NCBI GenBank assembly: GCA_037439705.1
Contig: JBBIVP010000052.1
Span: forward strand, 1 to 10,104
Direction: 5' to 3'
Origin: JBBIVP01 sp037439705 [NCBI: bacterium]
Lineage (GTDB): Bacteria; JBBIVP01
Length of the DNA: 10,104 nt
The notes beneath the pieces are model-generated. The model did not search any database and was not told the DNA's origin. It was given only the letters and a program-made list of their open reading frames with translations. Position 1 is the stretch's first letter; each line of letters begins with the position of its first letter. Shown here one piece after another: positions 174-8,044 of the stretch. The translations under genes and the position numbers were made by a program.

Positions 174-1583
174 TTAAAATTTCATCTTGTTTATGGAAAA
201 GAAGGCATGACGGAAGCCGAGAATCTGTTTAAAGTATCCAATTTTGTCGAAGGGATAATCTTTGAAAACCCTTATTATTCTTGGCGGATAACCGTAAAAT
301 AAAAGGTAAGCCTTCATGTAAAGCCTTTTTAAAGTTTTATCATCAACATTGGAAAGGTTTAGGTGGGTATAATGGTAGTGATAATTCTTGAAATCCTTGA
401 ACTCCCTTCCCTCTCCATACATTTCATAAAGGTCTGTATTCTCAAATGGAGTAACAATAAAGAAACCGGCTGTATGAAGTTTTGATGTAACAGCAAATTT
501 TATCGTCCGATTTATCTCTTCCTTTGTTTCCGTTGGAAATCCAATCATGAAGTAGCCTGTTGCAAAAATTCCGTTTTTGACCCCTATCTCAATTGCCTTT
601 CTCGCCTTTTCAATATCAAGGTTCTTCCTTATCAGTTTCTGAATCCTTTCGGATGCAGATTCAATTGCAAAACTTATATAATATGTCCCGCACCTTCTCA
701 AAAGCTTTAAGGTTTCCTCGGTCAATATATCAGACCTCAATCCATTCGGAAATGAAAGGATTGTCTTCCATCCCCTTTTGAGTATTCCTTCACATATAGC
801 ATGTGTCCTTGCTGTATCCACATTGAATATGTCGTCAACAATTTCAAATCTTCTTATCCCGAATCTTTTCATTATATATTCCATCTCCTGAAGGACATTT
901 TCTGGAGACCTTTTTCTCACTATCCTTCCAGAAAGCTTGTGGCAATAGATACAGCTGTAAGGGCACCCCCTCTCTGTATACATTGCCACATAGGGAATTT
1001 CTAATCTTGTTCCTGAAAACTTTCTCTCTTTCGCATACCTCTCAATGGGAAGGAGGTCCCATGCTGGAAATGGTATATCATCAGGATTTTCAACTACCTC
1101 TCCTGGCGGATTAATTACTATTTCTCCATTATTATTTCTATATACGATTCCATTTATTTCTCTTCCATCCTTTCCGCTTGCCAGTGCGTTTATAAGTTTG
1201 TGAAATGTCTTCTCACCCTCTCCCCTCACTGCATAATCAATGTTCATGTCAGAAATGGTATCTTCAGGAAAAAGAGATGGATGCGGTCCACCAGCTATAA
1301 CTTTGATTTTTGGAGAAACCCTTTTTGTCATCAGAGCAATTCTGTGCATCTCATGGGCTTCCATCGTTATAGAACTTATCCCCACCACATCTGGAGAAAA
1401 TTCCTTTATAACCGAATAGAGCTGATTGTCATCGGGTTTCTCAATACGGATATCATAGAGTTTTAACTTCATATACGGTTCCTTTTCTCTGAGATAAGAG
1501 GCAAGGTAGGCTATTCCGAGAGGAGTGGTTATAACATTAAATCTTTCTGGAACAAAACCTGCTTTTATAAGGAAAACCCTCAT
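174..1583 (-). CDS. B12-binding-domain radical SAM enzyme (BchE-like architecture), substrate unknown
   Basis: This 469-residue protein has the two-domain layout of cobalamin-dependent radical SAM enzymes. Residues 1 to about 165 form a Rossmann-like B12-binding domain, with the family hallmarks GISS (68-71), AGGPHPS (97-103) and YAVRGEGE (118-125). No DxHxxG motif is visible, as is usual for this class. The radical SAM TIM barrel follows, with the 4Fe-4S cysteines C207, C211 and C214 in ERGCPYSCIYC. Further conserved segments are EIVDDIF (247-253), FAIESAS (305-311) and GYFMIGFPTET (343-353). Members perform methylations, cyclisations or ring rearrangements; the sequence does not reveal the substrate. 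The start is the ATG at 1583-1581. It lies 6 nt from a predicted -10 element and has no Shine-Dalgarno motif, so the mRNA is probably leaderless. It is divergent from the PhaR-like operon, and a possible second minus-strand gene follows 18 nt after its stop. The family call is firm; the function is open. Confidence 0.93.
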   Translation of the reverse strand: MRVFLIKAGFVPERFNVITTPLGIAYLASYLREKEPYMKLKLYDIRIEKPDDNQLYSVIKEFSPDVVGISSITMEAHEMHRIALMTKRVSPKIKVIAGGPHPSLFPEDTISDMNIDYAVRGEGEKTFHKLINALASGKDGREINGIVYRNNNGEIVINPPGEVVENPDDIPFPAWDLLPIERYAKERKFSGTRLEIPYVAMYTERGCPYSCIYCHKLSGRIVRKRSPENVLQEMEYIMKRFGIRRFEIVDDIFNVDTARTHAICEGILKRGWKTILSFPNGLRSDILTEETLKLLRRCGTYYISFAIESASERIQKLIRKNLDIEKARKAIEIGVKNGIFATGYFMIGFPTETKEEINRTIKFAVTSKLHTAGFFIVTPFENTDLYEMYGEGREFKDFKNYHYHYTHLNLSNVDDKTLKRLYMKAYLLFYGYPPRIIRVFKDYPFDKIGYFKQILGFRHAFFSINKMKF

Positions 1584-1589
1584 AATTTT

Positions 1590-1618
1590 ATTCTAATTGA
1601 TTATATAGATTTAATCAA
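1590..1618 (-). promoter_or_regulatory. Sigma-70-type promoter of the radical SAM gene (leaderless geometry)
   Basis: Read on the minus strand: TTGATT (1618-1613), a 17-nt spacer, TAGAAT (1595-1590), then 6 nt (AAAATT) and the ATG at 1583. The expected transcription start therefore falls at the start codon. A more consensus-like TATAAT lies within the spacer (1605-1600), but the hexamer 17 nt upstream of it (AAAGAG) is a poor -35. If it were used instead, the leader would be only about 10 nt with no ribosome binding site. Confidence 0.6.
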
Positions 1619-1636
1619 GCGACTCTTTCGGTTGCT
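1618..1636. promoter_or_regulatory. Imperfect inverted repeat between the divergent promoters, possible operator
   Basis: AGCGAC (1618-1623) and GTTGCT (1631-1636) form a six-position dyad with one G:T mismatch around a 7-nt centre. It overlaps the outer edge of the leftward -35 and sits 11 nt from the rightward -35, a suitable position for a regulator acting on both promoters. Short dyads of this size arise by chance, so this is a suggestion only. Confidence 0.25.
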
Positions 1637-1647
1637 CGTACAAATCC

Positions 1648-1676
1648 TTGAAACCTATAACGCAATGTGTTAAAAT
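1648..1676 (+). promoter_or_regulatory. Sigma-70-type promoter of the PhaR-like/acpS operon (leaderless geometry)
   Basis: TTGAAA (1648-1653), an exact 17-nt spacer and TAAAAT (1671-1676) form a good sigma-70-type promoter. The GTG start codon of the first gene begins 6 nt after the -10 hexamer, so the predicted transcription start coincides with the initiation codon and no ribosome binding site fits in between. The 14 bases ending in the -10 match the promoter at 6308-6336 in 12 positions. Confidence 0.75.
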
Positions 1677-1682
1677 GCGGGT

Positions 1683-2192
1683 GTGAAGGTCATAAAAAAG
1701 TATAAAAATCGCAAGCTTTATGATATGGACGAAAGCAGGTATGTTACTTTGAACGAAATAAAGGAAATAATGAAAAAGGGTGAAGAGGTTCAGATAATAG
1801 ACGATGCTACGGGAGAGGACATAACATCAGTTGTCCTCACGCAAATCCTGCACACCGTAGAGAAGAAGGAAAGAGCTCTTCCACAGGAAGGTTTGAAATG
1901 GCTGTTAAAGTACGGAGGAGAGGCTCTTGAGGAGCTGATTTCAAATATTCAGAACATAAGAAAGGAGGCAGAAAAACAAATAAAGACATTTGTAAAAAAG
2001 GGGAAAGAATCCGCTTCAGAAGAGATAAAAAAGACATTCTTTGATGCTCTAAAAGAAATAAGAAACACAATAAAGAGTTTCATACCCATCTCCACTGATT
2101 ACAAAAAGACTCTTGGTGAGATAAAAGAAATTAAAAAGAGGCTGAAAAGAATGGAGAAAAGAATTTTAAAACTTGAAAAAAATAGAAAATAA
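1683..2192 (+). CDS. PhaR-like regulator with PHB/PHA-accumulation DNA-binding domain
   Basis: The protein has 169 residues. Residues 5-58 match the polyhydroxyalkanoate-accumulation regulator DNA-binding domain, with the signature YKNRKLYDMDESRYVTLNEI (7-26), a GEEVQIIDDATGEDIT segment (33-48) and VLTQIL (51-56). In the family this domain is coupled to PHA/PHB granule regulation, where it represses phasin genes. Many distant bacteria carry it without PHA synthesis, and no PHA gene is visible here. The rest (about 62-169) is charged and helical, ending in a lysine/glutamate-rich segment (144-168) with heptad-like leucine/isoleucine spacing that probably forms a coiled coil. The start is a GTG only 6 nt after the -10, so the message looks leaderless. 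It heads the operon, and its stop lies 3 nt before the response regulator. The DNA-binding domain is clear; the target and signal are unknown. Confidence 0.85.
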   Translation: MKVIKKYKNRKLYDMDESRYVTLNEIKEIMKKGEEVQIIDDATGEDITSVVLTQILHTVEKKERALPQEGLKWLLKYGGEALEELISNIQNIRKEAEKQIKTFVKKGKESASEEIKKTFFDALKEIRNTIKSFIPISTDYKKTLGEIKEIKKRLKRMEKRILKLEKNRK

Positions 2193-2195
2193 ATC

Positions 2196-3575
2196 ATGGA
2201 AGGAGAGAGGGGAAACATCTTAATAGTTGACGACGAGCAAAGCTTCTGTGATGTGTTAAAGGAAATTTTTGAAGAGATGAGATGGAATGTTGATACATGT
2301 GGAACCATTAAAGAAGGACTGGAAAAACTGAAAAGTGGCGCTTACGATGTGGTGATTACTGACCTGAAACTTCCTGATGGAAGGGGGGAGGATTTTCTAA
2401 AAATTGTGAAGGAGACAAATCCCGATACAGAAGTAATTGTGTTAACCGCATACGGAACGGTTGAATCTGCTGTAGAGGCAATGAAGAGTGGCGCATTTCA
2501 TTACATTCTCAAAGGAGGAAAGGTGAGCATAGAGGAACTGAAGCTCACCTCCATAAAGGCTCTTGAAAGGAAGAAATTGAAGGAAGAAAACAGAAGACTG
2601 TGGCGAGAGCTCTACAGGGAATTTTCCTTTGAAAACATTGTTGGACGCTCAAAGGCGATGCAGGAGATTTTTGAGCTCATAAGAAGAGTTTCACTTGTGG
2701 ATACTCCTGTTCTTATTGAGGGAGAAAGTGGAACAGGAAAGGAACTTGTCGCAAGGGCAATCCATCACAACTCTCCAAGAAGGCTGAAACCTTTTGTAGC
2801 AATCAACTGTGCTTCAATTCCAGAAACCCTCGTTGAAAGTGAACTCTTCGGACACATAAAGGGTGCTTTCACCGGAGCATACACATCAAAAAAGGGACTT
2901 TTTGAAGTGGCTGACGGAGGGACGGTATTTCTTGATGAAATAGGAGACCTTTCTTTACCTGTCCAGGCAAAACTTCTGAGATTTCTTCAGGAAAAGACAT
3001 TTCAGCCAATTGGAAGCACAGAGGAAAAAAAAGTGGATGTCCGAATAATATGTGCTACGAACAAGAACCTGAAAGATGAAATGCTGAGTGGAAGGTTCAG
3101 GGAAGACCTGTTCTACAGGATAAATGTGGTATCAATAAAACTTCCTCCTCTCAGGGAAAGAAAAGAAGACATTCCACTTCTGGTTCGCCATTTTGTTGAA
3201 AAGTTTTCAAAGGAATTGAAGAAGGAGATAAAAAGGGTTTCTGACGAAGCCATGGAAATGCTCCTGAATTATTCCTACCCAGGAAATGTCAGGGAACTGG
3301 AAAACATCATAATAGGTGCTATAACCCTTGAAAGCTCTGACCTGATTCAGGCAGAAACCCTTCTTCTGTTAAAGAAAAACAGAGAAGGAACGGAAATTGC
3401 ACTTGACCCTTTAAGGGAAGGATTTAATCTTGAAAAGGTAATTGCAGAAACAGAAAAGAAGTATGTTAAAATGGCTCTTGAAAAGGCAAATGGAAAACAG
3501 GCAAAGGCAGCTGAAATTTTGGGAATCACACCAAGGCAATTGAGATACCTCATGGATAAATACGGGATTAAGTAA
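2196..3575 (+). CDS. NtrC-family sigma-54-dependent response regulator (REC-AAA+-Fis HTH)
   Basis: This complete 459-residue bacterial enhancer-binding protein activates sigma-54 RNA polymerase by ATP hydrolysis. The receiver domain spans about 6-125: acidic pair D12/D13, phospho-acceptor D56 in [10 protein letters not shown]84 and K106. K106 is followed by GG rather than the usual proline. The AAA+ domain spans about 145-380. It has Walker A GESGTGKE (176-183), the sigma-54 contact loop GAFTGA (223-228), Walker [11 protein letters not shown] (241-250), the arginine-finger region [11 protein letters not shown] (301-311) and [10 protein letters not shown] (361-370). A Fis-type helix-turn-helix closes the protein (about 434-457, [18 protein letters not shown]). 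The start is the first ATG after the upstream stop; no Shine-Dalgarno lies before it, though a purine-rich stretch lies just after it. No histidine kinase is present in the window, so it is an orphan here. I saw no -24/-12 promoter in the intergenic regions. Confidence 0.96.
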
Positions 3576-3587
3576 AATTCATCAACT

Positions 3588-4319
3588 ATGAAGATAAAAG
3601 TAGGAACATGTGGATTTCCCGCTCAAAAGGAGAAACTCTTTTCAGAACTTGATGCAATTGAAATCCAGCAAACCTTTTACCATCCTCCTGAAGCACAGAC
3701 CCTTAAAAAATGGAAGGAGGAAGCAAAGGGAATGGTTGAGTTTACTCTCAAGGCATGGCAGTTAATAACCCATCTTCCCTCAAGCCCCACCTACAAAAAA
3801 TTAAAGGGAGAACTCAAAGAAAAAATATCAAAAATCTCGGATAAACTCGGCTTTTTCAAAAACACAAAAGAGGTTTTCAGAGCGTATGAAAAAACATTGG
3901 AATCCTGTGAGGCAGTTGGAGGAAAGGTAATCATTTTTCAATCACCATCTTCTTTCAGGGAGAACGAGGAAAACATAAGAAATATGAGAAATTTTTTTAA
4001 AAATGCCTACAGACCGAAAGGGATTACATTTGTCTGGGAACCAAGGGGAAGGTGGAATACTGAAATTTTGAAAGAAATCTCAAAGGATTGCGAAATTTTA
4101 ATAGGAGGGGATCCTCTTGGAGGTGGTTATCTTATGGGTGAGGTCTTTTATTTGAGACTTCACGGAATCGGTGGATTCAGATACAAATTTAAAGAGGAGG
4201 ATTTCAGAAAGATTTCTGAAATAATTGGAAATAAGAAAACTTATGTTATGTTCAACAACATAAGCATGTTTGAGGATGCTTTGAAATTTAAAAAATTTAT
4301 AAGCGGGAGGAAAAAATGA
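3588..4319 (+). CDS. DUF72 (YecE-like) family protein, TIM-barrel fold, function unknown
   Basis: This 243-residue protein matches DUF72. It opens with VGTCGFP (5-11), followed by the strongly conserved block AIEIQQTFYHPP (23-34). Then come FTLKAWQLITHLPSSPTY (52-69), IIFQSPSSF (115-123), a FVWEPRGRW strand (about 149-157), a G-rich loop (IGGDPLGGG) and a late YLRLHG segment. The length is normal for the family. DUF72 proteins are predicted TIM barrels of unsettled biochemical role. The ATG lies 12 nt after the response-regulator stop and has no Shine-Dalgarno motif, so translation may depend on ribosomes arriving from upstream. Its last codons carry the GGGAGG ribosome binding site of the next gene, and its stop overlaps that gene's start (ATGA). 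Confidence 0.88.
   Translation: MKIKVGTCGFPAQKEKLFSELDAIEIQQTFYHPPEAQTLKKWKEEAKGMVEFTLKAWQLITHLPSSPTYKKLKGELKEKISKISDKLGFFKNTKEVFRAYEKTLESCEAVGGKVIIFQSPSSFRENEENIRNMRNFFKNAYRPKGITFVWEPRGRWNTEILKEISKDCEILIGGDPLGGGYLMGEVFYLRLHGIGGFRYKFKEEDFRKISEIIGNKKTYVMFNNISMFEDALKFKKFISGRKK
4305..4310 (+). promoter_or_regulatory. Shine-Dalgarno motif of the M20 peptidase gene
   Basis: GGGAGG lies 5 nt before the ATG at 4316, inside the last codons of the DUF72 gene. It supports the ATG that overlaps the upstream stop, and shows that this organism uses Shine-Dalgarno initiation alongside the apparently leaderless first genes. Confidence 0.8.
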
Positions 4320-5632
4320 ATGAAAAAGAATGGAACGAAATAAAGGAAGAGGCAATTGAGGTCCTTTCAAAATTCATTCAGTTCAACACCACAAATCCTC
4401 CAGGAAACGAGTTTCCAGCCTGCGAATTTCTCGGAAGCATCTTAAAAAGAGAAAATATAGAGTTTAAAATTGAAAAGACCGCGGAGAACAGGGCAAATTT
4501 ATATGCTGAAATATCAGGCGGAAAAGACCCTCTTGTAATTCTTTTAAACCACATTGATGTGGTTCAGGCGGATCCGAAAGAATGGAGCGTTGGCCCTTTT
4601 TCGGGAGTTTTTAAGGACTCTTATATATGGGGAAGAGGAGCACTGGATTGTAAAGGGCTCGGAATTATGGAACTTTTCGCCTTTATCCTCTTGAAAAGAA
4701 AAGGAAATCTAAAAAGAAATATCATCTTCTGCGCCACTGCGGATGAAGAGATGGGAGGGAGGTTCGGAGCATACATAGCTGCTGAAAGGCTTTCTCAGAG
4801 ATTAAAAAACGCATTTGTTCCAAATGAAGGAGGACTTGGAATAAAAAGGATGCTCTTCGGAAAAAACCTGTATTCACCTGATTTCGGAGAGAAGGGACCG
4901 GTATGGATTGAACTTGTTGCAACAGGAAAGGCGGGACATGGTTCAATGCCCCATCCTGACAATGCAAACCTGAAACTCATAAATGCCGTAGAAGAAATTC
5001 TGAAAAGTAAAAAGGAAATGAAGGTGATTCCAGAAATTCGTTCAGCCCTTAACTTTCTAAAAAAAGAATCAGGAAGAGTAAAATTCTTTCCTTTTGTATT
5101 CAGACTTTTACCAAAATTTCTTCTGAAGAAAGCACTATCAAAAAATTACAGGCTTTCTGCCATGTTCCATAATACCTTTGCCCTTACCATACTTAACGGA
5201 GGATATAAGGAAAATGTAATACCCGGAAGTTCAAGGGCAGTTATTGACATAAGGCTTCTCCCGGGAGAATCTCCTGATAAAGTGATTGAAGAAATAAAAA
5301 AGAAGGTGGAAAAATATGGAGTTTCGGTAAATGTTTTAGCAAAAGAAATGCCATCCCTTTCAGACCCACAGACAAAATATATGGAGTGTATAAGAGAAGT
5401 AATAAAAAGAAAATATCCGGATGCTCTGTTTCTTCCACTTCTTGTTCCCGGTTTCACTGATTCAAGATTTTTCAGGGCAAAAGGAGCGATAGCATACGGA
5501 TTTATTCCCTGCACCTTTGAGCAGGAGGAGATTGACAGGGTTCATGGCGTAAATGAAAGAATCTCAGAAGAATCTCTGCTTGAAGGAATAAAAAATATAT
5601 ATGAAATAGTAAAGGCAGTTCAGGAAGTATGA
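4316..5632 (+). CDS. M20-family metallopeptidase/amidohydrolase (ArgE/DapE/CPG2-like)
   Basis: This 438-residue zinc-dependent hydrolase of the M20 family cleaves amide bonds in peptides, acylated amino acids or related substrates. The full metal set is visible: H79 and D81 in LLNHIDVV, bridging D111 in WGRGALDCKG, catalytic base E144 and ligand E145 in TADEEMGG, E171 in PNEGG, and H410 in RVHGVNERI. The lid/dimerisation domain (about 195-310) carries GHGSMPH (207-213, with H208) and NVIPG (300-304). The catalytic domain resumes with TDSRFFRAKG (381-390). No signal peptide is seen, so it is probably cytoplasmic. Residues 255-285, between the lid motifs, are hydrophobic and basic. The start overlaps the DUF72 stop as ATGA and has a good ribosome binding site; its stop overlaps the acpS start in the same way. 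The family is certain; the substrate (dipeptide, N-acyl amino acid or other) cannot be decided. Confidence 0.92.
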   Translation: MNEKEWNEIKEEAIEVLSKFIQFNTTNPPGNEFPACEFLGSILKRENIEFKIEKTAENRANLYAEISGGKDPLVILLNHIDVVQADPKEWSVGPFSGVFKDSYIWGRGALDCKGLGIMELFAFILLKRKGNLKRNIIFCATADEEMGGRFGAYIAAERLSQRLKNAFVPNEGGLGIKRMLFGKNLYSPDFGEKGPVWIELVATGKAGHGSMPHPDNANLKLINAVEEILKSKKEMKVIPEIRSALNFLKKESGRVKFFPFVFRLLPKFLLKKALSKNYRLSAMFHNTFALTILNGGYKENVIPGSSRAVIDIRLLPGESPDKVIEEIKKKVEKYGVSVNVLAKEMPSLSDPQTKYMECIREVIKRKYPDALFLPLLVPGFTDSRFFRAKGAIAYGFIPCTFEQEEIDRVHGVNERISEESLLEGIKNIYEIVKAVQEV

Positions 5633-6000
5633 TACTCGGTCTTGGAATTGATGAGGTTGAAATAGAAAGGGTGATAGATATGCTTGAAAGATATGGTGAA
5701 AAGTTTAAAAAAAGGTTTTTTTCTGATGAGGAACTCCATATAGTTGGAAATTTCCCTCAAAAAATGGCTGGAAGGATTGCTGGAAAAGAGGCGGTTTATA
5801 AAGCAATATCTCCCGGTCAAATTGGACTGAGGTGGAGGGAGATAAAAATTCTGGAGAAAGATGGAAAACCTGTTGTATTTCTTTCAGGAAAAACAAGAGA
5901 AATCTCTGAAAAAACGGGAATAAAAAATCTTCACATCTCCATCTCACACACCTCAACCCTCGCCATAGCGGTGGCAATTGCCGAAGGGGAAATCTCATAA
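5629..6000 (+). CDS. acpS: Holo-[acyl-carrier-protein] synthase
   Basis: AcpS transfers the 4'-phosphopantetheine arm from coenzyme A to a serine of apo-ACP, switching on fatty acid synthesis in the cytoplasm. The 123-residue length is typical. It begins ILGLGIDEVEIERV, with metal-binding D8. FFSDEEL (30-36) is the usual FTxxE region, RIAGKEAVYKAI (49-60) holds the magnesium ligand E54, and LHISISHTSTLAIAVAI (101-117) is the conserved C-terminal strand. E9 follows D8, where the family more often has isoleucine, leucine or valine. The ATG overlaps the M20 stop (ATGA), with a weak AGGA 3 nt upstream, so translational coupling is likely. It is the last gene of the five-gene operon. No strong GC-rich terminator follows; the non-coding region beyond is AT-rich. 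Confidence 0.93.
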   Translation: MILGLGIDEVEIERVIDMLERYGEKFKKRFFSDEELHIVGNFPQKMAGRIAGKEAVYKAISPGQIGLRWREIKILEKDGKPVVFLSGKTREISEKTGIKNLHISISHTSTLAIAVAIAEGEIS

Positions 6001-6307: not shown

Positions 6308-6336
6308 TTGACTTTTTTGACACAATGCGTTATAAT
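6308..6336 (+). promoter_or_regulatory. Strong sigma-70-type promoter of the membrane-protein/tldD unit (leaderless geometry)
   Basis: TTGACT (6308-6313), an exact 17-nt spacer and perfect TATAAT (6331-6336) give a near-consensus promoter. The ATG at 6343 begins 6 nt after the -10, so the transcript should start at or next to the initiation codon. An upstream in-frame ATG at 6325 lies before the -10 and would not be transcribed from this promoter. Confidence 0.8.
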
Positions 6337-6342
6337 TATTGT

Positions 6343-6699
6343 ATGATGAATGTAAAAGAAATAATGGTCAACATAAAAAAGGTAGATGTGGAGGAAATTT
6401 TTTCCTCCCTTCTGGTCGTCTTTCTTACAGTCTCTCTTCTCGTTTCAAGCGGGCTTTACTATTTTTTTGTGGGAAAGAATTATAAAGAAATGATTGAGCT
6501 CTTCTATTTTCCACCCATTCTTTCCCTTCAATTCCTTCTCACCCTTCTTTCCATATTCTCTCTCTGGATTTTAAAGAATAAACCGATCTCTTACGCAAAG
6601 CCGTTCAACCTCTTCCTTTTCGCCAATATCCTTATGGTGAATCTCAACCTCTTTGTTTCAGTCCTTCTGGTCATAATAGGGCTTTTATCCTATTTCTGA
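6343..6699 (+). CDS. Small integral membrane protein, about three helices, unknown function
   Basis: From the ATG at 6343 the protein has 118 residues. A short charged N-terminus (1-19, MMNVKEIMVNIKKVDVEEI) is followed by three hydrophobic segments at about 21-43, 57-77 and 88-116. The last is long enough for one long helix or two short ones. I recognise no family motif or catalytic residue. A longer frame starts at 6325, but that ATG precedes the TATAAT, so 6343 (or the adjacent ATG at 6346) is preferred. No Shine-Dalgarno motif is present, consistent with leaderless initiation. The stop lies 1 nt before the TTG start of tldD, so the two genes are almost certainly co-transcribed and may be functionally linked. 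The protein could be a membrane anchor or partner, but that is inference from position only. Confidence 0.75.
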   Translation: MMNVKEIMVNIKKVDVEEIFSSLLVVFLTVSLLVSSGLYYFFVGKNYKEMIELFYFPPILSLQFLLTLLSIFSLWILKNKPISYAKPFNLFLFANILMVNLNLFVSVLLVIIGLLSYF

Positions 6700-6700
6700 A

Positions 6701-8044
6701 TTGGGACTGAATTTCTCCTCATTACCCCTTGAGGAATCTCTGAAAAAAGTTCTGAAAGAATATGAAGATGGCGATATATTTATTGAGCGGAAGGGAGGAT
6801 TTAGAATAAAATTTGAAAACAAAAAGCCAGAACTAATACTTCAATTAAACGAAGAAGGTTTCGGAATAAGGGGAAGAAAGGATAAGGAAATCGCATATTT
6901 TTATTCAACAGGAATAATACCCGCTCGCCTTCTGGAAGGCGCAAAAAACCTGAAAGAAGGAAAGATACATGGCTATGATATTCCTCAGGAGAAACCTTCA
7001 GGAAAAGAAAAGGAGTATTCAAGAGAATCTGTCCTGAATGCAATAAGCTCTTCTCTGAAACTTCTTGAAAGGAAGGAAATTCTTTCATCAACTGTATTTT
7101 ATGAATTTTTGGAAAGGGAAATAGGAATTTTTACAAAGAGAGGATTGGTGACGGAAATTCAGAGAAGGGGATTCATGTTTTCAAAAGTTATTGTGTCGAA
7201 TGGAAAAATTTTTCAGACAGGTTATGAAATTGAGGGAGCCTCCTCGGATGCTCCGTTGAGAGGAATAAATCCGGAAAGGGTTATTGAAATTTCCATTGAA
7301 AGAGCCCTCACAAATTTTAAAGCTTTACCCCCTCCTCTCGGAAGGATGCCCGTGGTTATAGGAGGTGAAGCGGGTGGAACAATGATACATGAAGCTGTAG
7401 GACATGGATTTGAAGCAGACCATGTAGTTAAAAAAAGTTCTGTTTATGCTGGAAAAATAGGAGAAATGGTAGCATCTCCTCTTATAACAGTAGTTGATGA
7501 CCCGACAATTGAGGGGATGAGGGGAAGTTACTTATATGACGATGAGGGAATGCCCGCCAGAAGGGTTGTTTTAATAGAAAAGGGGATTTTGAAGGATTAC
7601 CTCTATGATAGTGCGTGGGCTGGAATGGCTGGAAGGGAAAGCAACGGGCATGGAAGAAGGGAATCCTACAGGTATCTGCCAATTCCGAGGATGTCCAATA
7701 CATTTATAGAAAGGGGAAGCATGAAAAAAGATGAAATTATCAGGGGGGTATGGAAAGGGGTATATGTGAAGAAAATGGGAGGTGGTGAGGTAAATACTGT
7801 AAACGGCAACTTCGTTTTTCATGTCCTTGAGGGCTACAGGATTGAGAACGGAAAAATTGGGGAACCGATTCAGAATTTTTCAATCTCAGGAAATGGTCCT
7901 GAGGTGTTAAAAATTATAGATGCAGTGGGAAATGACATTGGCTGGTCAGTAGGAAATTGCGGAAAAGCTGGACAACTGGTTCCTGTATCTGACGGCATGC
8001 CAACAATAAGAATACCCGAAATGATTGTTGGGGGGATTGAATAA
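6701..8044 (+). CDS. tldD: TldD-family metalloprotease (TldD/PmbA family)
   Basis: TldD pairs with TldE (PmbA) in a zinc protease that cleaves unfolded peptides; in enterobacteria it processes microcin B17 and degrades CcdA. This 447-residue protein has the metal-binding motif HEAVGH (230-235) within GGEAGGTMIHEAVGHGFEAD. The cysteine ligand position is C420 in GNCGKAGQ. Other family segments are VVDDPTIEGMRGSYLYDDEG (264-283) and NTVNGNFVF (365-373). It is a little shorter than the E. coli protein (about 480), mainly in the N-terminal domain. The first usable start is a TTG at 6701, 1 nt after the membrane-protein stop; no clear ribosome binding site is seen, so re-initiation is likely. No tldE/pmbA gene lies in the window. 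TldD rather than TldE is chosen because the full HExxxH and cysteine ligands are present. Confidence 0.9.
   Translation: MGLNFSSLPLEESLKKVLKEYEDGDIFIERKGGFRIKFENKKPELILQLNEEGFGIRGRKDKEIAYFYSTGIIPARLLEGAKNLKEGKIHGYDIPQEKPSGKEKEYSRESVLNAISSSLKLLERKEILSSTVFYEFLEREIGIFTKRGLVTEIQRRGFMFSKVIVSNGKIFQTGYEIEGASSDAPLRGINPERVIEISIERALTNFKALPPPLGRMPVVIGGEAGGTMIHEAVGHGFEADHVVKKSSVYAGKIGEMVASPLITVVDDPTIEGMRGSYLYDDEGMPARRVVLIEKGILKDYLYDSAWAGMAGRESNGHGRRESYRYLPIPRMSNTFIERGSMKKDEIIRGVWKGVYVKKMGGGEVNTVNGNFVFHVLEGYRIENGKIGEPIQNFSISGNGPEVLKIIDAVGNDIGWSVGNCGKAGQLVPVSDGMPTIRIPEMIVGGIE

Follow-up and report, generated by a model that had tools for sequence, protein, structure and literature searches.

Leaderless-type spacing of outward-facing promoters and a predicted PhaR-family operator at the -10 region of a phaR-like gene

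Two divergently transcribed genes, a leftward gene for a B12-binding/radical SAM protein and a rightward phaR-like gene, are separated by a 99-bp gap (positions 1584-1682) in the stretch of bacterial DNA analysed here (10,104 nt of contig JBBIVP010000052.1; hereafter, the window), and the gap holds two outward-facing sigma-70-type promoters. The initial annotation read both promoters as placed for leaderless mRNAs and suggested that such initiation is routine in this organism.

Promoters and start codons

The features of the divergent gap and of the genes that flank it are as follows.

174-1583, minus strand: B12-binding/radical SAM protein gene (ORF; PF02310 and PF04055), ATG at 1583
1590-1595, minus strand: leftward -10 hexamer TAGAAT (read 1595-1590), ending 6 nt before the ATG at 1583
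1600-1605, minus strand: alternative leftward -10 hexamer TATAAT (6/6), best -35 hexamer 2/6, gap of 16 nt to the ATG
1613-1618, minus strand: leftward -35 hexamer TTGATT (read 1618-1613), 17-nt spacer
1648-1653, plus strand: rightward -35 hexamer TTGAAA, 17-nt spacer
1671-1676, plus strand: rightward -10 hexamer TAAAAT with TGn extension, 6 nt before the GTG at 1683, in-frame TAA inside
1683-2192, plus strand: phaR-like gene with PHB_acc_N domain (PF07879), GTG start
2196-6000, plus strand: downstream genes of the phaR unit, encoding an NtrC-type regulator, DUF72, an M20 peptidase, and AcpS (ORFs, Pfam)

Read directly from the sequence, both divergent promoters have the 17-nt spacer attributed to them, and on both strands the start codon begins exactly 6 nt after the -10 hexamer, from TAGAAT to the ATG at 1583 and from TAAAAT to the GTG at 1683. 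Consensus matches number 9 of 12 for the leftward promoter and 10 of 12 for the rightward one. A gap of 6 nt places the first three bases of each -10 hexamer in frame with the gene that follows, as TAG for the leftward gene and TAA for phaR; these stop codons, 12 nt upstream, set the upstream limit of both divergent ORFs. Nor are the starts expected much further downstream, since the PF07879 DNA-binding domain occupies residues 3-62 at the N terminus of the phaR product (2.2e-23, Pfam) and the B12-binding domain of the leftward product begins at residue 17 (Pfam). Further, when the phaR product is aligned with 20 orthologues, the aligned region starts at its residue 1 or 2. The phaR-like gene is followed directly by that of the NtrC-type response regulator (window 1683-3575); of 20 phaR loci from the G505 phylum, only two show an NtrC-type match, several kb from phaR (L109 and L116).

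A third promoter, with 11 of 12 consensus matches, lies in front of the unit that includes tldD.

6308-6313, plus strand: -35 hexamer TTGACT, 17-nt spacer
6331-6336, plus strand: -10 hexamer TATAAT, 6 nt before the ATG at 6343
6343-6699, plus strand: gene for a small hydrophobic protein without Pfam match (ORF), opening the unit that includes tldD
6701-8044, plus strand: tldD (PF19289, PF01523), TTG start, no Shine-Dalgarno (SD) sequence seen upstream

This site had been counted as a third case of the same placement. Its spacer of 17 nt and gap of 6 nt do match, but the gap depends on the choice of the start at 6343 among three in-frame candidates, the others being 6325, which gives the longest ORF and lies inside the promoter, and 6346 (ATG). 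An annotation made from the longest start of the small hydrophobic ORF (6325-6699), which directly precedes tldD, might add 6 residues. The description of these sites as three of three recognisable promoters is slightly overstated, since a further promoter-like site with 10 of 12 matches is located inside nuoM (9662-9635, minus strand).

At all three promoters, the start codon opens with a purine that lies 7 nt after the -10 hexamer, and the first T of the -10 hexamer (TANNNT) lies 12 nt before 1583, 1683, and 6343. The same placement characterizes TA-led leaderless genes, in which TANNNT is positioned about 12 bp before the start; such genes were reported for 207 of 953 bacterial genomes from many groups, with TAtaaT forms in medium- and low-GC genomes (extracts of Zheng et al., 2011, PMC3160421). 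Unlike the genes described there, all three cases in the window also have a -35 hexamer with 4-5 of 6 matches, and one start is GTG. In Deinococcus-Thermus, a -10 hexamer about 6-7 bp before the ORF was demonstrated by experiment to drive leaderless mRNA, and an added -35 hexamer strengthens it (extracts of PMC12340547); the corresponding adjacency in the window is predicted and apparently belongs to another phylum. As had been proposed, the first genes lack an SD sequence, with GGAG, GAGG, or AGGA found before 0 of 3 starts. Among the five within-operon genes called in the window, two have an SD motif, and nuoN, which was missed by the gene caller, has one by eye.

It could be argued that AT-rich DNA readily yields -10-like hexamers and that an in-frame TAA or TAG is expected near the start of an ORF in any case, so that the spacing would be fortuitous. 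Promoter-like sites show no enrichment across the full window (23 versus 21.9 expected), and the leftward site taken alone is unremarkable, given that a site with 9 of 12 matches anywhere in the 100 nt upstream of that gene has a probability of 0.20; by itself, this weak promoter is unconvincing. Against such an origin, dinucleotide shuffles of the 100 nt in front of each gene yield a site with at least 9 of 12 matches at a gap of 4-8 nt with probabilities of 0.015, 0.016, and 0.021 (product 5e-6). Moreover, a gap of exactly 6 nt has a probability of 0.009, 0.008, and 0.005 when the in-frame TAG and TAA of the divergent genes are held fixed, which removes the bias that arises at ORF boundaries, where the longest ORF tends to start just past an in-frame TAA or TAG that mimics a -10 hexamer. 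All of these values are to be discounted, as the gap of 6 nt and the start at 6343 were both picked post hoc and the two rightward promoters, having an operator-like element in common, are not independent draws. Even so, per-gene probabilities of 0.5-2%, along with a palindrome common to both rightward promoters, make it unlikely that the three-of-three spacing arose by chance, and we consider this the least probable of the explanations weighed here.

A second alternative is that these mRNAs carry short leaders, or leaders devoid of an SD sequence, with transcription starting further upstream and SD-less translation taking place on an unstructured, AT-rich leader. Under this explanation, the leftward gene would be transcribed from the TATAAT at 1605-1600, which would yield a leader of about 10 nt, and the other genes from unrecognised promoters. 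The perfect TATAAT at a gap of 16 nt on the leftward strand is consistent with this, as are the three of five called within-operon genes that lack an SD sequence, which suggest that SD-less initiation inside mRNAs exists here. However, the leftward TATAAT is accompanied by a -35 hexamer of 2/6 at best, and both rightward genes have a better promoter at a gap of 6 nt, one that is backed by the register of the operator described below. Predicted folding of the 5' ends revealed nothing unusual, although the AUG of the leftward mRNA is paired in the predicted fold, which was counted against leaderless initiation. We regard short or SD-less leaders as improbable, and leaderless or nearly leaderless mRNAs as the best reading of the three promoters. 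The proposed transcription start on or near the start codon is well supported, as a prediction from sequence, for phaR and the gene at 6343; it is less well supported for the leftward gene, given its alternative TATAAT.

A palindrome shared by the two rightward promoters

Both rightward promoters contain an imperfect palindrome built around a single central base.

1656-1674, centre 1665: 19-bp imperfect palindrome TATAACGCAATGTGTTAAA, a predicted PhaR-family operator, spanning the spacer and the first four bases of the -10 hexamer
6316-6334, centre 6325: second copy of the palindrome, TTTGACACAATGCGTTATA, in the same register

When TTTGACACAATGCGTTATA is inverted, 18 of 20 positions are identical to TATAACGCAATGTGTTAAA, a match equalled in 0 of 400 shuffles. 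In both promoters, the palindrome begins 2 nt after the -35 hexamer and ends 4 bases inside the -10 hexamer, such that its centre falls 17 bases after the first -35 base and 6 bases before the first -10 base. No such palindrome was seen at the leftward promoter. The occurrence of a palindrome in the same register of the spacer and -10 hexamer of both rightward promoters, on which the initial annotation is silent, is the new element here, and the fixed register supports the gap-6 promoter of the rightward genes as the real one.

The palindrome at 1656-1674 lies in the gene's own promoter, as expected of a phaR gene, with PhaR as its predicted binder. PhaR proteins act as repressors of phasin genes and, in certain bacteria, of the gene that encodes them, and in P. 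denitrificans PhaR represses phaR from a site that overlaps the -35 and -10 hexamers (extracts of PMC3206438). In Ralstonia, the PhaR site is YTKNTGCRNYGCANMAR, with phaP1 being repressed and phaP3 activated, and the rule given for R. eutropha is YTKNTGCRNYGCANMAR with at most 3 mismatches (extracts of PMC12849132); the Bradyrhizobium site is TGCRNYGCASMA (extracts of PMC6201568). In these sources, the PhaR sites are palindromic around one base and have a conserved centre (PMC12849132, PMC6201568). As far as the extracts go, the window resembles the PhaR/PhbF systems of Ralstonia, Herbaspirillum, and Bradyrhizobium in its PHB_acc_N-type protein, a family tie made by Pfam name, and in a single-base-centred palindrome in the -35/-10 region with most of the GCR-N-YGC core. 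Autorepression is reported in the published systems and would agree with what is predicted for the PhaR-like protein of the window. Several differences are also evident. The sites at 1656-1674 and 6316-6334 fail the published YTKNTGCRNYGCANMAR rule, with 6 and 5 mismatches, respectively (hand count), and the GCR-N-YGC centre is complete at neither. They have C/G in place of T/A at -4/+4, and their AT-rich outer arms form part of the -10 hexamer. Furthermore, no phasin or PHA gene was seen in the window, and Pfam detected no pha gene among the ten window proteins scanned. No such site was apparent in the PhaR operator literature, including that on Acidobacteria, as judged by title among the matches listed.

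The palindrome recurs in front of phaR-family genes elsewhere. A consensus scan of 2.4 Mb recovered seven other sites with at least 17 of 19 matches, five of which are in phaR-orthologue loci of the G514 phylum, a phylum reached via a record titled Candidatus Aminicenantes. From the matches listed for this phylum, 50 phaR genes (10 loci and 40 stretches) were compiled, of which 49 were scored, the remaining one having only 8 nt upstream. Within 300 nt upstream of these 49 genes, a site with at least 14 of 19 matches was found in 43, at least 15 in 29, and at least 16 in 20, as compared to shuffle rates of 0.055, 0.009, and 0.001, respectively. The palindrome occupies the window's register inside a promoter with at least 9 of 12 matches in 19 of 49 cases (0.5 at random centres), a result favoured both by the widening of the pattern after the G514 sites had been seen and by the resemblance of the right arm to a -10 hexamer. 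A typical layout in this phylum consists of TTGACA, 2 nt, and the palindrome, with its right arm running into the -10 hexamer. Because the right arm is itself -10-like, the -35 hexamer was tested alone with the window-derived pattern. Of the 43 genes whose site has at least 14 of 19 matches, 16 have a -35 hexamer (at least 5 of 6 matches) at a distance of exactly 17 bases upstream of the centre and four at 18 bases; the other 43 offsets have a mean of 0.42 and a maximum of 5.

These observations bear on a further alternative, namely that a different dimeric regulator, and not PhaR, binds the palindrome and acts on the phaR and tldD units. Binding by PhaR is a prediction here, the sites depart from the published PhaR box at +/-4, and no in-register element was found upstream of phaR in two other phyla, with 0 of 30 orthologues in the G505 phylum and 0 of 6 in the G515 phylum; sites with at least 15 of 19 matches do occur there, in 4 of 30 and 3 of 6 upstream regions (shuffle rates 0.018 and 0.021). 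On the other hand, in distant genomes the palindrome again precedes phaR-family genes with an unchanged promoter register, and it has most of the GCR-N-YGC centre in common with published PhaR sites. Additionally, counts of the operator core are raised only in genomes that encode PhaR (80 versus 17 for the reversed pattern in 10 genomes with PhaR, 9 versus 7 in 10 genomes of the same phylum without it), a comparison that is supporting only, as the PhaR-encoding genomes were mostly picked for a well-scoring phaR upstream region and comprise more bases. We therefore judge a regulator other than PhaR to have a low probability, comparable to that of leadered mRNAs. Two genomes of the G514 phylum, G582 and G566, carry 26 and 17 operator-core matches versus 2 and 0 for the reversed pattern, and sizeable regulons may possibly exist there. 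At L147, L151, L208, and L212, two or three tandem palindromes surround the phaR promoter, with one upstream of the -35 hexamer and one between the -35 and -10 hexamers; in the Ralstonia phaP1 promoter, by comparison, one site is upstream of the -35 hexamer and one is around the transcription start.

Most of these orthologues do not have the window's start arrangement. An SD sequence is present at a candidate start in 61 of 85 phaR orthologues (27 of 30 in the G505 phylum, 29 of 49 in the G514 phylum, and 5 of 6 in the G515 phylum), and a promoter with at least 9 of 12 matches at a gap of 4-8 nt to any candidate start was detected in 3 of 85. The 19 in-register cases comprise 15 with an SD sequence and four without. 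Three loci (L206, L225, and L232) combine an in-register operator with the lack of an SD sequence and a -10 hexamer just 8, 9, and 7 nt, respectively, before a candidate start, and may represent independent leaderless phaR genes. Operator and near-leaderless start hence co-occur in the G514 phylum as well, where a longer leader is commoner and the leaderless form occasional.

Leaderless spacing in other genomes

Whether leaderless initiation is routine in this organism, as had been suggested, was approached from the window and from other genomes. From three of three visible transcription-unit starts, our own arithmetic puts the 95% lower bound at about 37% of units, which is compatible with a high leaderless rate and is no proof of one. 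Among the genomes searched with TldD, no close relative of the window's organism was found: the best match shares 56% identity across residues 148-446, which make up two thirds of the protein, and other loci reach at most 49%. The genome nearest by TldD identity (G003), of a phylum reached via a record titled Nitrospirae, has other genes on its tldD contig, and 20 of its stretches hold only an NtrC-type match. For Nitrospirota classes, one source gives SD figures, its extracts giving no leaderless genes (PMC10783764). PhaR was detected in 0/395 (a weak negative), 43/46, 86/396, and 6/8 sampled genomes of four phyla, and the PF07879 family in 0/5 and 0/101 genomes of two more phyla and in 1/17 genomes behind the TldD loci. 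Synteny around phaR was not observed in 20 genomes of the G505 phylum. Searches of plasmids (whole window, near mode), viral contigs (NuoN only), and Rfam (gathering thresholds) returned no match.

First-in-operon genes were surveyed with a simple, home-made gene caller, whose starts are approximate; in the window, it finds the three first genes along with five within-operon genes. As a control, the last 25 nt before each start were shuffled locally with in-frame TAA and TAG excluded, and a strong -10 hexamer was defined as 5/6. In four low-GC genomes from the G003 phylum, selected for good TldD hits within long contigs and with TldD proteins that are distantly related, a strong -10 hexamer occurred at a gap of 5-8 nt in 13/70, 8/52, 11/64, and 5/34 first genes versus 4.8, 3.5, 4.7, and 1.8 after shuffling (combined, 37 of 220 versus 14.8). 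For within-operon genes of the same genomes, the count was 17 of 401 versus 18.6. None of 93 first genes with an SD sequence had a strong -10 hexamer at this gap, an exclusion that is partly forced, as both elements occupy the same bases. The looser pattern TAnnnT was in slight excess in these genomes (z of 2.3, 0.3, 0.4, and 2.1). Under the window's own definition (at least 9 of 12 matches, gap of 4-8 nt), applied with the longest start and uncorrected for ORF-boundary bias, 24 of 220 first genes and 7 of 401 within-operon genes qualified in the four genomes, as did 3/84 first genes in HR19, 2/52 in G544, 5/145 in G505-phylum loci, 2/38 in G003, and, among controls, 0/25 in D. deserti and 0/20 in E. 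coli.

The excess of strong -10 hexamers is absent from HR19 (7/84 versus 5.7), G544, G505-phylum loci, and G003. An apparent leaderless enrichment in HR19 (G005) in a first survey (28 versus 10.4) was mostly due to ORF-boundary bias and was rejected: it fell to 8 versus 4.8 when TAA- or TAG-initial hexamers were excluded at every position, and, when only in-frame TAA and TAG were excluded, the counts were 7 versus 5.7 for strong -10 hexamers and 20 versus 13.4 for TAnnnT (z of 2.1). That this bias inflated the count of one genome is a point in favour of chance as the source of such spacing. HR19 (L125-L132, L014) has few SD motifs, in 11 of 84 first genes and 6 of 51 within-operon genes, without a clear excess of strong -10 hexamers. 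The D. deserti plasmid control gave 7 TAnnnT sites at a gap of 5-8 nt versus 1.0 expected in the first survey (E. coli, 0 versus 2.4) and 4 versus 1.0 (z of 3.2) after bias correction, at which point no strong -10 hexamer at this gap was detected in E. coli. Since D. deserti has a strong -10 hexamer in only 1 of 25 first genes and none in 25 at 9 of 12 matches, these two definitions would miss genomes of its kind. Placement at a gap of 5-8 nt is frequent in one comparably distant group, and the other groups sampled did not show it. Leaderless initiation as a routine of this organism is plausible; it cannot be assumed, because the strong -10 excess is present in four genomes of one phylum and absent in the other sampled lineages.

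A model for the locus and its meaning

Taken together, we favour, with a probability of roughly two in three, a model in which the outward promoters produce leaderless mRNAs and PhaR regulates its own gene and, by extension, the tldD unit. RNA polymerase would start on, or within 1-2 bases of, the start codon at both outward promoters, and the ribosome would begin on the 5'-terminal AUG or GUG without an SD sequence. When sufficient, free PhaR would occupy 1656-1674 over the -35/-10 region and block its own gene, and it would also bind 6316-6334, thereby repressing, rather than activating, the small-protein/tldD unit as a second target. A transcript that starts at the start codon has no leader in which to house a repressor site; here, the operator would instead be built into the spacer and -10 hexamer.

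The leaderless arrangement itself is already known, whereas an operator fused to the -10 hexamer and tldD as a target are less expected. If supported, the locus would add to the known leaderless cases a bacterium that lacks close relatives among the genomes searched, and gene finders that predict starts from SD sequences could fail here. More speculatively, and with the odds against it, leaderless initiation could be the default for first-in-operon genes of this lineage, combined with a PhaR operator that is fused to the -10 hexamer in a register shared with a distant phylum, such that promoter, operator, and start codon form a module of about 38 bp and the tldD unit represents a new kind of PhaR target. 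The model predicts a PhaR-family protein that uses the -10-fused operator to repress both the tldD unit and the leaderless gene from which it is made.
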